From Bacteroidota bacterium (GTDB lineage: Bacteria > Bacteroidota > Bacteroidia > Bacteroidales > Paludibacteraceae): a DNA stretch of 60,900 nucleotides. Below, piece by piece: positions 11,271 to 37,764 of this stretch (position 1 is the first letter of the stretch; each line of letters begins with the position of its first letter). The position numbers and the translations under genes were made by a program. The notes beneath the pieces were generated by a model. It was not told the origin of the DNA, ran no database searches, and worked only from the letters and a program-made list of their open reading frames with translations. Location: positions 68,151 through 129,050 of the forward strand of contig JAFNAS010000010.1 in NCBI GenBank assembly GCA_017860295.1, given 5' to 3'.

Positions 11271-11301
11271 TTGACTTTAACAATATCCTTCTTTATCTTT
11301 A
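11271..11301 (+). promoter_or_regulatory. Promoter of candidate small RNA 1
   Basis: TTG (11271-11273), then a 20-base spacer, then TATCTTTA (11294-11301). This is the Bacteroidota sigma-factor pattern with one mismatch in the last base of TAnnTTTG. It predicts transcription from about 11308 into the element that ends at the terminator near 11480. Confidence 0.55.
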
Positions 11302-11307
11302 ACTTCT

Positions 11308-11482
11308 AAAAAAGACGACAGAGGAAATGTTTCGTTTGGTAATGAAGTTTTTTTTGACAAAGTGAGTTACTTATAGTTATTCAATATTGAGTGATAGAAC
11401 TTGAGAAAGCAAAACACTCTGTCTATTATTTTTCTCTTTAGATTAGGTAAAAAAGGATGATGTGAAATCGTCCTTTTTTTTG
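11308..11482 (+). ncRNA. Candidate small RNA 1 (paralogue of the element at 13400)
   Basis: About 175 nt between a promoter and an intrinsic terminator, with no conserved open frame. It shares with the element at 13400 an identical 20-nt stretch (11426-11445, ending TTTCTCTTTAGATTA). The two also share the preceding CTTG-GAAAG-AAAAC block and a similar 5' segment (GAGGA, TGTTTCG, then a T-run). The terminal hairpin AAGGATGAT/ATCGTCCTT lies at the same place as GGGCGAT/ATCGCCC in the other copy, with changed but paired bases. It sits tail to tail with the LuxR-type gene. The function is unknown, and the family could already exist in an RNA database under a name I cannot check. Confidence 0.6.
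11450..11481 (+). terminator. Intrinsic terminator of candidate small RNA 1
   Basis: AAAAAGGATGAT, a GTGAA loop, then ATCGTCCTTTTTTTT: a 9-bp core stem with one G-T pair followed by eight Ts on the plus strand. The flanking A-run on the other side means it could also stop transcripts of the convergent regulator gene. Confidence 0.8.
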
Positions 11483-11487
11483 TTCCA

Positions 11488-12207
11488 TTAAATGATGCGG
11501 TTGTGAAGTGCTATATATACCGCTTCTGCCATCGACGACACGTGAAATTTCTTATAGATGTTTTTCTTGTAATAGCGTACGAGATCCAATTTAATATTCA
11601 GTAGTTTTGCTATCTTGTTTTCTCCATGCCCTTTTGCGGTCAATTTTAGAATCTCTATTTCTACCTCTTTTAATTCCAGATTTTTTTTCTGTACATACTT
11701 ATCTGCCAGTGATGAATAGTATAGTTTTTTATCGTTGCTTTTTACTGCGATGGAAAATTTCTCGAATCCGGATTTGCAACTAGGCAAAAGCAGAGCATAA
11801 GCCAATAAAGGGTAGCCGGTTTCGGAAAAAGAAATAGGATGTATCAGAATGCAATAATCTGTATAGTCTCCGGTGTGTTTCCGTAATTTGACATGATAAT
11901 GTGCATCTACATAAGGACTATTATTTTCTTTTTGGTATAATTTGGTGTAAAAGAGAATAGTTTTTGTGTGAGCTTTGATTATTGTAGGTAACTCTTTGGG
12001 ATGCAATAGCCGAGTGAATATTTCTCTCTGAAGGGATTTTACATCTTCATTCGTTATTCCGGTAAGTTGAGTAAAACTGTCCGAGACATAGAGTATTTCG
12101 AAATTGGAAAGGCTAAGAATAATCATTTCGGTAGCCCAGATTTCTGAGAATATGTTGCAAGCTCTTATATGTTCGTTTAGTTTTAAATTAAAATCTTGTT
12201 GGTTCAT
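11488..12207 (-). CDS. PAS-like sensor with C-terminal LuxR-type DNA-binding domain (first of a pair)
   Basis: Transcription regulator of 239 residues. About residues 25-150 look like a PAS fold (I-L-S-L-S-N-F-E-I-L-Y-V-S-D-S-F-T-Q-L-T-G opening, then an acidic and aromatic core). The last 65 residues are a LuxR/FixJ helix-turn-helix: E-V-E-I-E-I-L-K-L-T-A-K-G, then E-N-K-I-A-K-L-L-N-I-K, then V-R-Y-Y-K-K-N-I-Y-K-K-F. The ATG at 12207 is chosen over a TTG two codons upstream. No phosphoacceptor receiver domain or membrane segment is seen, so it probably senses a cytoplasmic ligand or partner. The next gene has the same architecture, 68 bp upstream on the same strand, and candidate small RNAs lie on both sides of the pair. 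Confidence 0.75.
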   Translation of the reverse strand: MNQQDFNLKLNEHIRACNIFSEIWATEMIILSLSNFEILYVSDSFTQLTGITNEDVKSLQREIFTRLLHPKELPTIIKAHTKTILFYTKLYQKENNSPYVDAHYHVKLRKHTGDYTDYCILIHPISFSETGYPLLAYALLLPSCKSGFEKFSIAVKSNDKKLYYSSLADKYVQKKNLELKEVEIEILKLTAKGHGENKIAKLLNIKLDLVRYYKKNIYKKFHVSSMAEAVYIALHNRII

Positions 12208-12275
12208 AGTCAATAAATTATGACAGATCTATATCAAGTAAGTTTTATTTTTATTTCTGGATTACTCTCAATCTC

Positions 12276-13043
12276 TCAGATAAGACCTTGTTGGTGTAGT
12301 ATGGCAACGGTTTGCGCTGTAGATTGAGTATTTATATGAATCATTATCGCGGCTTTTATGCGTTTTAACGAACTAGTGCTTATATCGAGTTTATTGGCTA
12401 TTTCGGTTTCGGAGAACCCTTGACAAGCGAGCAAAAATATATCTAAATCGCATTGCTTTAGTGTTATGTGATTTGGATTGCATCTCGATTGAGGATTAAG
12501 TAAGTATAATATCTCGTTCTCTTGATGCAAATTATGCAAGGATAATTTTCCGGAGCTAGAAGAGTTACAGAGGTTGCACTGATAAAAATTGATCCAAGGT
12601 AATTTCTCTTGCGAAAGATGGATATAGCTATATGGAAATGCCTTAATCTCTATTATTTGTGTTTGATGATCTTTGGTCGAAAAAGGTGCCCTGAATGAAA
12701 AATAAAATGCATTTTCTTCATTTCCTTTGGCATGATCTGTAATATGAGCGGTGATGAGATGTATATAGTGAGCAAATGTCTCTTCAAATTCAGGGGAGAT
12801 TCTGAGAACAATATTTTTTTCGTCTACGAATAGTTCGTAGGTTGTCTCTCCAAAAATACTTGACAATTTTGGATCGGAGTTAAAAAAAATCAGTTGCTTT
12901 TTATATAGATCTGTTATAAAGAATGTTTTTTTTAAATAGGTGGAAACTGACTGGAGATTCTGAAAACGATGATCCAGTAATGTGTAGTCTGGAATCTGAG
13001 AATAGAGGATATTGTCGTTGAAAAACAGTGATGTATTGTTCAT
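12276..13043 (-). CDS. LuxR-type regulator with PAS-like N-terminal half (second of a pair)
   Basis: A 255-residue regulator diverged from its neighbour but of the same plan. A sensor-like N-terminal part (F-F-I-T-D-L-Y-K-K-Q-L-I-F-F-N-S-D-P near residue 42 resembles a PAS entry strand) is followed by a C-terminal helix-turn-helix: C-D-L-D-I-F-L-L-A-C-Q-G-F-S-E-T-E-I-A-N-K-L-D-I-S, then L-K-R-I-K-A-A. A C-x-x-C pair in Y-Q-C-N-L-C near residue 155, with further Cys later, might bind metal or sense redox, but this is speculative. It could be co-transcribed with the next regulator gene. A 557-bp upstream gap holds a second candidate small RNA reading away from it. Confidence 0.7.
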   Translation of the reverse strand: MNNTSLFFNDNILYSQIPDYTLLDHRFQNLQSVSTYLKKTFFITDLYKKQLIFFNSDPKLSSIFGETTYELFVDEKNIVLRISPEFEETFAHYIHLITAHITDHAKGNEENAFYFSFRAPFSTKDHQTQIIEIKAFPYSYIHLSQEKLPWINFYQCNLCNSSSSGKLSLHNLHQENEILYLLNPQSRCNPNHITLKQCDLDIFLLACQGFSETEIANKLDISTSSLKRIKAAIMIHINTQSTAQTVAILHQQGLI

Positions 13044-13362
13044 TGTGGTTGCACTTGTTTGGATCTGTTTGAAAGGTAAAGTTACTGTAATCTTACCGAA
13101 AAACAGTTGTTTTGTTGGTTTTTTATGTAGTCATCTTTTTATCTGCCATCAATAATTATTTTTGTTTTTCAACTACCATTTTTCACAATTAGGTTTGCAT
13201 GTTATATTAAAATTAACGGCATGTTTAATTCTGATAATTTATAAATCTTGAATGTTTAAATACGACTGACTTGTGGCGTAGTTTCAAGATTTAAGTTGAA
13301 ATTGAAGTGATACAAAAATGTAGTTTTTTTCTATTTGATAGGCAATATTACGTATCTAGACG

Positions 13363-13393
13363 TTTGTGTTTTACATTCTTTTTATTACTTTTG
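13363..13393 (+). promoter_or_regulatory. Promoter of candidate small RNA 2
   Basis: TTTG (13363-13366), then a 19-base spacer, then TACTTTTG (13386-13393): an exact match to the Bacteroidota -33/-7 consensus. The predicted start is about 13400. Confidence 0.75.
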
Positions 13394-13399
13394 TACAAC

Positions 13400-13584
13400 C
13401 AATAGTTCCGAAACGATATGTGTTTGTCAGGAGGAGGCTGTTTCGGGTGAAGGTGATTTTTTTAAAAATATAAACCTATATACAAAAAACAGAGATGCGT
13501 AGCTTGTGAAAGTAAAACAAACTCTTTATTTTTCTCTTTAGATTATTGAAAGAATGGGGCGATGGATATCGCCCTATTTTTTTT
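13400..13584 (+). ncRNA. Candidate small RNA 2 (paralogue of the element at 11308)
   Basis: About 185 nt with consensus promoter, defined 3' terminator and no credible open frame (the only ATG gives ten codons and is not conserved in the sister copy). A 5' hairpin CCGAAAC/GTTTCGG (13408-13444) presents a purine-rich AGGAGGAGG in its loop. The 3' half carries the 20-nt identical stretch at 13526-13545 shared with the other copy. The terminal hairpin differs in bases yet keeps pairing. The 3'-proximal CTTT-N-GAAAG segment may form a small stem. Whether it acts in trans on mRNAs or on the neighbouring regulators is unknown. Confidence 0.65.
13554..13584 (+). terminator. Intrinsic terminator of candidate small RNA 2
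   Basis: GGGCGAT, a GGAT loop, then ATCGCCC: a perfect 7-bp stem that extends to 10 bp with a G-T pair, followed by eight Ts. Confidence 0.85.
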
Positions 13585-13601: not shown

Positions 13602-14513
13602 TCATTGGAACGATAAATAAGGTTCGATTTTAGACAACGTCTCTTTGTCTAATGCGTCGAGACTCTTTAAATCGTTAATAGATCTGAGGGAACCTTTGGT
13701 TAGGCGGAGCTCATAGATGGCCTTTGCTTTGTAAAAATTCAAATAAGGATGGAACTTCAATCTTTCTATACTGGCTCGGTTGATATTGATAGGTAGTATT
13801 AGCTTGGCATTAACGGAAAAATGGGATACGATGGAATTGTATAGCTCGGAAGTCATTCCCCATACCTCGTGCAATTGTTCAATCTTTACAAAACCGCCCA
13901 ATCTTTTTCGATAACCGGTAATGCGTCGGGCAAATCCGGATCCGATACCTTTTATTTGTTGCAATTGAGCGGTGTCAGCACTGTTAAGTTCAACGATGTT
14001 CTCGGTTTTGATAATTCGAGGGCGTACTATTATTTGTGTGGTAGGTGTTTCGGAAGGAATGTCTACGTATGGTAAGAGAGCTTGCATTTGTTCTTTACGA
14101 ATACCCCATATCTTTTCAAAGTCTTCTGTTTTCTTGAATTTTCCACCTTTTCTACGATATTTTAAAATATTAGAGGCAATTTTAGGCTTAATGCCTAATT
14201 TGATAAACTGTAGCGAGTCGGCCGTATTCGGATTAAATCGAGATAAAATAGGGGTTAGTCGTATTTCGTGGTAAAAATCAGATTTGTTTTCGGCATAATT
14301 GCGATAATAAGTTTGATAATAGATCTTTGACGGGGCTTTTTTGAGAGAGTCAAGAAAAAAGCGTGCTTCAGATTCAAAATTGTCTTTGAGGACATTGCGG
14401 TGAGGCAAAGAAAGAATAACCATTTTAGCTATGATGAGTGCTAAAATGATAACTACTAAAATAAGAATGCCAATCTTTTGGCTTCTTGAGAAGAAAAACC
14501 AATCTTTCCACAT
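13602..14513 (-). CDS. ComEA-like helix-hairpin-helix protein, membrane-anchored
   Basis: A DNA-binding protein of about 303 residues with one N-terminal membrane helix (roughly residues 14-34, a run of I, L, V and A). Three helix-hairpin-helix units follow: F-N-P-N-T-A-D-S-L near 93, L-N-S-A-D-T-A-Q-L-Q-Q-I-K-G-I-G near 175 and I-N-R-A-S-I-E-R-L near 245. ComEA binds incoming DNA during competence, but in Bacteroidota the role of such proteins is largely untested, so the function is inferred from domains. The ATG at 14513 is preferred to a TTG two codons earlier. It follows ansA on the same strand by 64 bp. Confidence 0.8.
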   Translation of the reverse strand: MWKDWFFFSRSQKIGILILVVIILALIIAKMVILSLPHRNVLKDNFESEARFFLDSLKKAPSKIYYQTYYRNYAENKSDFYHEIRLTPILSRFNPNTADSLQFIKLGIKPKIASNILKYRRKGGKFKKTEDFEKIWGIRKEQMQALLPYVDIPSETPTTQIIVRPRIIKTENIVELNSADTAQLQQIKGIGSGFARRITGYRKRLGGFVKIEQLHEVWGMTSELYNSIVSHFSVNAKLILPININRASIERLKFHPYLNFYKAKAIYELRLTKGSLRSINDLKSLDALDKETLSKIEPYLSFQ

Positions 14514-14577
14514 AAGCAAAAATGTTTAGTGTTCGAAAGTTTGGCTTTAGGTCGGTTTACTTCCGTTTCCGGCAAAA

Positions 14578-36828: not shown

Positions 36829-37698
36829 ATGCTTTCACAACACGCTCACCGTCTCTGGTTCAACTATTTTCTGCTGTTTTTCGGCGTTCTCTGCATTTCG
36901 TGGTCGGCCATTTTCGTAAAACTGGCAGGCATCAGCGGATTCGGGTCGGCATTTTACCGCATGGCATTCGGGCTAGTGGCCATTTTTCCTGTTTGGTTGC
37001 GTTTCAGAAAACCGATTGCCGATTGGCACGGTGTGAAAATTGCTCTGCTTTGCGGACTCTTCTTCGCGGGCGATATTGCGTTGTGGAATACCTCCATTAT
37101 GCTTACCAAAGCTTCAATCTCTACCCTGTTGGGTAATATGGCTCCGATATGGGTCGGGCTGGGCGCCGTGTTTATTCTGAAAGAACGACCCGGACGGATT
37201 TTCTGGACAGGAACGGCTATCACGTTAGTCGGAGTAGCCGTTGTCGTGGGATTGGATAAACTCTCGGCTACAGATTTCTCATTCGGCAATTTCCTGTCTA
37301 TTGCAGCAAGTATGTTTTACGGTGCTTATCTGCTGACAACTCGCAAAGGGCGCAACACGCTCGATACCTTTTCGTTTACCATGCTCTCGATGGTAGCCAG
37401 CACTACAGCGCTCGGCTTCTTGTGCCTCTTCACCCGCGTACCGATGTGGGGATTTTCGGCACAAACCTGGTGGTCGCTGGCGGCTTTGGGACTTGTGCCG
37501 CAAATGCTGGGCTGGCTTGCCATTAATTTTGCACTGGCCTACATTAAACCGACGGTAGCTTCCGTCACGCTGCTCAGTCAGTCGATTCTGACGGCTATCT
37601 TTTCTATTCCGGTACTGGGCGAATTTATGTCGATCCGAGAAATAATCGGCGCACTGATTGCCTTGACGGGAATTTATCTGGTAAATACGAAGCGATAA
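36829..37698 (+). CDS. EamA-family (drug/metabolite superfamily) transporter
   Basis: Inner-membrane protein of 289 residues with ten predicted helices arranged as two EamA halves. The N-terminal half has I-S-W-S-A-I-F-V-K and L-W-N-T-S-I-M-L-T-K-A-S near residues 25 and 85; the second half ends in a short K-R tail. Such proteins export amino acids, nucleotides or drugs; the substrate cannot be read from the sequence. It is divergent from the GH105 gene and convergent with the dihydroorotate-dehydrogenase-like gene, so it is a single-gene unit. A TATTTTTG -7 box at 36781-36788 precedes it. Confidence 0.85.
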   Translation: MLSQHAHRLWFNYFLLFFGVLCISWSAIFVKLAGISGFGSAFYRMAFGLVAIFPVWLRFRKPIADWHGVKIALLCGLFFAGDIALWNTSIMLTKASISTLLGNMAPIWVGLGAVFILKERPGRIFWTGTAITLVGVAVVVGLDKLSATDFSFGNFLSIAASMFYGAYLLTTRKGRNTLDTFSFTMLSMVASTTALGFLCLFTRVPMWGFSAQTWWSLAALGLVPQMLGWLAINFALAYIKPTVASVTLLSQSILTAIFSIPVLGEFMSIREIIGALIALTGIYLVNTKR

Positions 37699-37701
37699 AA
37701 G

Positions 37702-37734
37702 AATAACGGCCTCATTTTTAATGAAGCCGTTATT
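37702..37734 (+). terminator. Terminator between convergent genes
   Basis: AATAACGGCCTCAT and ATGAAGCCGTTATT form a 14-bp arm pair with one mismatch and a 5-nt loop. It follows the EamA stop by three bases and is followed by octamer repeats, not by a clear T-run, so it may work mostly in the other direction. Confidence 0.6.
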
Positions 37735-37764
37735 CAATCATTCAATCATTCAATCATTCAATTT
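37733..37764. repeat. Octamer tandem repeat (TTCAATCA)
   Basis: Three perfect copies of TTCAATCA and a partial fourth (TTCAATTT), running across the stop codon of the dihydroorotate-dehydrogenase-like gene on the minus strand. Confidence 0.75.

Follow-up and report, generated by a model that had tools for sequence, protein, structure and literature searches.

The window analyzed here is a stretch of 60,900 nucleotides (nt) from a Bacteroidota bacterium of the family Paludibacteraceae (assembly GCA_017860295.1, contig JAFNAS010000010.1, positions 68,151 to 129,050 of the forward strand). Our subject is a locus at its positions 11308-13584, where two proposed small RNA (sRNA) genes on the plus strand, A and B, flank two minus-strand regulator genes, LuxR2 and LuxR1, with PAS-like and LuxR-type helix-turn-helix (HTH) domains. 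Upstream, up to 10973, lies an operon for the use of rhamnose (RhaA, RhaT, FGGY kinase). G001, G003 and G006 in the following description are genomes of related species.

11271..11301, plus strand: promoter-like site of A, TTG-N20-TATCTTTA, read from the sequence, weak
about 11308..11482, plus strand: proposed sRNA gene A, with positional counterparts in G001, G003 and G006
11389..11431, plus strand: predicted hairpin of A before the linker; its 3' arm covers the first 6 nt of the conserved block
11426..11445, plus strand: conserved block of A, TTATTTTTCTCTTTAGATTA, the proposed seed; the 20-mer is identical in B
11449..11482, plus strand: terminator hairpin and T run of A, T-rich on both strands
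11488..12213, minus strand: LuxR2, PAS and LuxR-type HTH regulator; ATG at 12207 is the likelier start
12276..13043, minus strand: LuxR1, PAS-like and LuxR-type HTH regulator
13364..13393, plus strand: promoter of B, TTG-N19-TACTTTTG, found in four of four species
about 13399..13584, plus strand: proposed sRNA gene B, pointing away from the LuxR genes; its start is an estimate based on the promoter
13488..13545, plus strand: block of B kept in four species, containing CTTGTGAAAG and the seed
13526..13545, plus strand: conserved block of B, TTATTTTTCTCTTTAGATTA, the proposed seed
13548..13584, plus strand: terminator hairpin and T run of B
13602-14519, minus strand: helix-hairpin-helix gene, the downstream border of the locus

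Unit A faces the end of LuxR2, and B diverges from LuxR1. The identical 20-mer is part of the highest-ranking direct repeat in this region (29 nt, 86%, spacing 2100), and the terminal stems, GGATGAT/ATCGTCC and GGGCGAT/ATCGCCC, pair and are predicted to fold as terminators. The first-pass annotation, made from the letters of the window, had named the two promoters, the block and the stems, all of which are directly readable in the sequence. A promoter of the B type, TTG-N19 or 20-TAYTTTTG, is present in all four species, and hairpins before the linker, like that of A, are predicted in several relatives too. Since it is T-rich on both strands, the terminator of A may also end the LuxR2 transcript. 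Neither unit is the leader of a downstream gene, because both run into convergent genes; the idea of a protein-coding leader was rejected on the same ground and in view of the many indels in the 5' parts of the B orthologs.

The comparison covered eight genomes of the genus (relatives of Paludibacter, G000-G007), of which G000 is the window's own. The pattern ATTTTTCTCTTTAGATT at one mismatch or less occurs seven times in G000, where its reversed form gives no match, 12 times in G001, 11 times each in G003 and G006, once in G004 and not at all in the remaining three genus genomes; these counts take in sense (complement-side) sites as well as copies of the units. Outside the genus the pattern gave one or two matches each in 4 of 33 genomes, which look like chance because the reversed pattern gives similar counts (one each in 3 of 41 genomes). 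A covariance model, applied to 150 first-look candidates per genus genome, found the family in four of the eight. With 25 candidates scored per genome, the same model found it in four of 200 genomes of the taxonomic family, with seven matches at E<=0.001 in G000, six each in G001 and G003, and five in G006; the weakest match of each genome scores 37-45 bits and the others 54-79 bits. The exact 19-mer was found in 24 stretches of a genome collection, in a scan that may leave out records of the window's own genome: eight came from Paludibacter sp. SA7853_bin1 and Bacteroidota bin158(14d), and the 16 others are taken as chance, because 11 of the 15 inspected sit inside an open reading frame (ORF). 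We therefore regard it as very probable that A and B belong to a multi-copy sRNA family, below called S. The genome-wide search that the first-pass annotation had called for thus yielded seven loci in G000, and its description of a duplicated pair proves too narrow, as five of the seven lie away from this LuxR operon. Other members follow tetratricopeptide repeat (TPR) proteins, one of them with a sub-cut-off match to a LuxR-type HTH, or lie beside a CI-type repressor.

In an alignment of the block and hairpin of 13 S units, a 14-nt core is invariant in all 13, and 9 of 10 stem pairs are changed on both sides, a value reached by none of 500 shuffles. The compensatory pattern noticed earlier in A and B thus extends to the wider set. 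The number of further pair types in the stem is not special, being reached in 66 of 500 shuffles; since terminators must pair anyway, the covariation points to a maintained hairpin and not to a special fold. One could still see in A and B plain terminators with upstream promoters of no product, and in the block the fossil of a local duplication, as convergent genes flank both hairpins, which could work for the opposite strand. This is highly improbable, since unlinked loci and different species share the block with few or no changes, whereas their flanks diverge. A further candidate role of the block, that of a promoter (TTG-N20-TATTTTTC), loosely fits B and was rejected, as the copies of the T type and X, the divergent member at a second LuxR locus, show by eye no TTG at that distance.

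Several sequences lie at the margin of the family. The window itself has a weak match to the S model on the minus strand (37694-37741, 20.8 bits, E 0.046), mainly to its hairpin part. A conserved S-like block ending in GATA, antisense to both flanking genes (L213 4043-4062 in G006, L199 2092-2111 in G003) and without a clear terminator, is a possible diverged member. At L179 8264-8279 of G000 a seed block without a clear terminator is preceded, about 100 nt before, by a degenerate CTTGTAAAAAACTCTTTATTTTTTCTCTTTA block.

The block is likely to be a targeting seed, as judged from the distribution of its complement. Matches to the complement AATCTAAAGAGAAAAATAAT at three mismatches or less number 11 in G000, 15 in G001, 14 in G003 and 13 in G006, as against 3, 0, 0 and 1 for the reversed control. 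A search for the exact 12-mer TCTAAAGAGAAA in the genus genomes other than G002 gave 15 sites for each of G001, G003 and G006 (reversed control 1, 0 and 3); the genomes without S, G007, G005 and G004, have 1, 0 and 1. By our own classification, 14 of the 45 sites of the three relatives are S units, 16 precede a start codon by at most 45 nt, 3 lie in leaders at a greater distance from the start, 9 belong to a class S* described below, 2 are antisense to the genes on either side and 1 is coding in frame. Outside S there are thus 31 sites against 4 in the reversed control, and 28 of the 31 are untranslated and run in the sense of a neighbouring gene (the start class being sense by definition). 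The 16 start assignments rest on our own ORF calls; they include three TTG and five GTG codons, and in two cases an ATG about 20 nt downstream was taken over the first TTG of the ORF.

Among the genes with sites at their starts, of each of which one copy was searched against Pfam, are that of a DegT-type aminotransferase, adjoining a sugar transferase gene (three of three relatives), that of a Polysacc_synt_2 protein, adjoining one for polysaccharide export (two of three), and that of a 121-aa protein with no match in Pfam, whose neighbour is thioredoxin-like (two of three); further ones appear by eye to encode secreted proteins or lipoproteins. Sites further upstream precede the genes of GDP-mannose dehydratase and of large adhesin-like proteins. 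No DegT aminotransferase was found in the window's own genome with a 55-aa query. The L256 leader would form 27 contiguous pairs with a T-type S, and gmd 24. Of 17 site groups, 5 have the letters CCAA, complementary to the UUGG flank of T-type S, before the core, where 0.46 are expected in a post hoc test. We also considered that the complement might be a general ribosome-site motif: of 249 starts in the fetched stretches, which had been chosen for motif hits, 237 have no close match (one mismatch or less), and 13 of these 237 match at three mismatches or less, where shuffled 12-mers average about 17; the idea was rejected because the motif is no commoner at these starts than the shuffled 12-mers. 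On these grounds we hold it probable that the seed of S pairs with the leaders of messenger RNAs.

Two further sequences resemble the complement. Tandem repeats of a unit like GATCTGCAGAGAGAAATAAAT at L108 (G000 C24:14197 onward) are superficially similar to it. One contig of the viral collection (IMGVR_UViG_3300016474_000543, L098 8615) also has the complement without mismatch, some 30 nt ahead of an ATG and within a predicted ORF, close to the start of the latter; this site is due to chance or is phage-borne.

The class S* consists of RNA ends that carry the complement AAUCUAAAGAGAAA just before a strong terminator. Three of the nine exact sites follow an AraC-type gene and two precede another, two follow the gene of a 324-aa protein without Pfam match, and two lie by other genes; an additional S* with one change stands after a second AraC-type gene in three relatives. 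HTH_18 and HTH_AraC are above cut-off in L206, L208, L205 and L252, the AraC-type proteins near S* appear by eye to be membrane-bound, and the AraC-type gene is found in the same four of the eight genus genomes. In the window's own genome the S* after this gene (L208) differs from the perfect complement at three positions, all wobble-compatible; with the S member L006 it would form 30 contiguous pairs, the computed energy being -39.7 kcal/mol with the typed T-type seed and -58.3 kcal/mol for the longer duplex. Because -7-like boxes are conserved by eye in three of four aligned S* groups, some S* may be separate RNAs and not 3' untranslated regions.

As the pairing is symmetric, and as some S* copies have promoter-like sites and adjoin regulators, the roles might be reversed, with the S* RNAs as regulators and with A, B and the other S units as their sponges or targets. 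We consider this very unlikely: the start sites are complementary to S, so that S* cannot pair with them, and it is S that keeps an invariant core throughout the alignment. More tentatively, and with a good deal of doubt, one may imagine that S and S* titrate each other genome-wide, the balance setting the translation of a shared surface-polysaccharide regulon via pairing at start codons.

The presence of the same 12-20 nt in both orientations near many unrelated genes, the existence of two terminator-adjacent classes and the diversity of genes near the S members also bring to mind an element acting at the DNA level (a recombination site, a mobile repeat or a transcription-factor site), in which case A and B would not be functional RNAs. 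Such an element is quite unlikely in view of the sense orientation of nearly all the non-S sites, often abutting the start codon, of the position of the block before a covarying stem in the 13 aligned units, and of the wobble pairing kept by the three differences of L208, although no search aimed at recombinases was made.

As to known families, no Rfam family matches the window at its curated cut-off, and the earlier remark that the set is not recognised from named families is largely right, since none reaches its cut-off on A or B. Searches of the literature on Paludibacter small RNA, on Bacteroides sRNA and sponges, and on Bacteroides LuxR, PAS, sRNA and quorum sensing gave no title on S among the matches listed. 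The nearest family is FopS (RF04319, cut-off 56 bits), the best described multi-copy sRNA family of Bacteroidota, from gut Bacteroides. At a loose threshold A and B score 22.4 and 25.5 bits, both over the whole model, and are the two best sub-cut-off FopS matches in G000; the T0 member is the best such match in G001 and G003 and the second in G006. The layout is the same, a U-rich stretch followed by a terminator. It is conceivable, then, that A and B are drifted members of FopS, which is nonetheless unlikely: their scores are far from 56 bits, B in a shorter stretch (25.8 bits) matches model positions 25-71 only, that is, spacer and terminator without the seed, and the counterparts of A and B in G001, G003 and G006 are not among the sub-cut-off matches listed. 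Moreover, true FopS coexists with S. It exceeds the cut-off in all eight genus genomes (150 candidates scored in each), as compared with four for S, and G000 has five copies, four in tandem within 1.1 kb (L265, C5:10683-13755), each with promoter-like letters upstream, and a fifth at C23:153208. The four copies of G000 that were inspected keep CAUGGUA, which S lacks. Finally, the FopS seed lies at the 5' end of RNAs of 65-70 nt (PMC11697453, partial text), whereas the conserved promoter implies for B a predicted length of about 185 nt with the seed 3'-proximal.

Membership of A and B in FopS was accordingly rejected, the score being below cut-off and the seed core different (UUUUUCAUGGUAUUAGAUU in FopS, UUUUUCUCUUUAGAUU in S). 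Both families have UUUUUC and UUAGAUU, between which FopS has AUGGUA and S only UCU; in A the letters common with the FopS model extend to UUUUUC...UUAGAUU...AGGU. Because the flanks of the seed are common and its middle differs, S may be a FopS offshoot with a changed seed or a product of convergence. Like S, FopS of Bacteroides is multi-copy, ends in a terminator and has a U-rich stretch complementary to the start regions of surface genes; unlike it, S has a longer 5' part and a different seed middle, and some of its copies adjoin regulators. FopS is bound by an RRM_1 protein (RbpB); G000 has three small proteins of this kind (L275, L276, L277), two of them about 1.4 kb apart. FopS represses operons of polysaccharide utilization loci by pairing near start codons, a mechanism that we propose for S as well, and GibS of Bacteroides thetaiotaomicron binds translation initiation regions (PMC11697453, partial text). 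By description, GibS is thus comparable to S as proposed here, a Bacteroidota sRNA acting at such regions. S is likely to be a new, lineage-specific, FopS-like family whose members are presumably transcribed; the family had been called unrecognised, which stands, and the first-pass annotation could see neither its likeness to FopS nor the seed role of the block.

The two regulators had been said to have the same architecture, and their predicted layouts are indeed equal: an N-terminal helix, a PAS-like fold and a LuxR helix-turn-helix (mean predicted local distance difference test scores 78 and 81). For LuxR2 the GerE match is above cut-off (E 1.8e-9) and PAS_3/PAS_9 are below it; for LuxR1 GerE is below cut-off (E 3.6e-4). 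With Foldseek, LuxR2 matches best 3clo (Bacteroides), then VqmA, with EL222 close behind, and LuxR1 matches best 3clo, then VqmA; the whole-chain template modelling (TM) scores are low (0.5 for 3clo, about 0.3 for VqmA). BLASTP gave no significant match between LuxR1 and LuxR2 of the window. The two types are nevertheless related, since each of these proteins matches proteins of the opposite type in relatives, with E values down to about 1e-8.

The A/B pair is kept with the LuxR genes in G001, G003 and G006, at an A-B spacing of about 2.04 kb. A second LuxR gene pair in G001 and G003, again with a divergent S member (X), has 30% identity to the window's LuxR1, and 37% (G001) and 29% (G003, shortened) to its LuxR2. 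In bin158(14d) this second-locus LuxR2 (L092 2128-2595) has 155 aa, compared with 230 aa in L089. A divergent S gene thus accompanies all six copies of the LuxR operon in the four genomes G000, G001, G003 and G006, and matches to LuxR1, found in 8 of 61 genomes at E<=0.001, occur within the genus in exactly the four genomes with S. The module of regulator and sRNA suspected from the window therefore recurs as a regulator-plus-divergent-sRNA unit at a second locus in two relatives. The bracketing by two sRNA genes holds at the present locus in all four species having it; at the second locus only the divergent copy was seen, with no S member at the far end in G001 and G003.

This arrangement is reminiscent of Vibrio cholerae, in which vqmA and vqmR are neighbour genes. 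There VqmA activates vqmR, and the VqmR RNA represses virulence and biofilm genes (PMC8284805, partial text). The common element is a PAS and LuxR-HTH regulator with an sRNA, a likeness that rests on the PAS-like models and the Foldseek ranking of LuxR1 and LuxR2; unlike VqmA-VqmR, the present locus has two regulators, another sRNA sequence and a multi-copy family, and belongs to another phylum. The chances are about even that the PAS-LuxR regulators would control B as VqmA controls VqmR.

Considering all the above, we propose, with a probability of roughly 0.6 for the model as a whole, that A and B are trans-acting FopS-like sRNAs silencing surface genes and that B is under PAS-LuxR control. 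Each S RNA would begin with a variable 5' part, followed by the conserved linker UUAUUUUUCUCUUUAGAUU and then by a terminator. The seed would be this linker, pairing with AAUCUAAAGAGAAAAA at the ribosome entry site or the start codon, and on surface and polysaccharide messenger RNAs this pairing would block translation. S* would pair with S and either sponge it or be controlled by it, and the two PAS-LuxR regulators would sense a small ligand and control the divergently transcribed B. What the sequences themselves show is the family, the covariation of its stem, the strand-specific sites of the complement, the co-occurrence and the conserved promoter of B; transcription, repression, sponging, LuxR control and the ligand are inferred.

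A number of observations weigh against this proposal. As to transcription, the promoter-like site of A shows no conservation in the relatives, so that it must be called weak, and is unproven. As to the regulators, no S is present in the fetched DNA around five loci from other genera that encode distantly related LuxR1 proteins (G012, G035 twice, G046, G223), and no LuxR operator shared by the promoters of B and X was found above chance. The seed is not conspicuously exposed: its predicted accessibility is unremarkable (mean unpaired 0.19-0.72 over 16 units), the predicted hairpin of A takes up part of it, and in the folds of the longer units, which have the terminator, the single-strandedness of the block is not clearly supported. 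As to targets in the window's own genome, G000 has seven exact TCTAAAGAGAAA matches (control 0), of which six are S-oriented and one (C20:8266) is of no clear class, and there is no other exact 12-nt site. The candidate targets in G000, those near starts being L017, L018, L021 and L023, have mismatches or wobble, and chance dominates at that stringency (23 matches, 18 in the control); the counterpart of L023 in G001 has, by eye, a site at the same start codon.

If the proposal is true, one genome would contain, in addition to true FopS, a further family that resembles it but has a changed seed, and one could learn from this how sRNA families divide and gain regulons. With its PAS-LuxR neighbour, B is a candidate for a switch from ligand to sRNA, comparable to VqmA-VqmR but in a different phylum. 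Through the complementary S* RNAs, the evolution of sponges would become directly testable.

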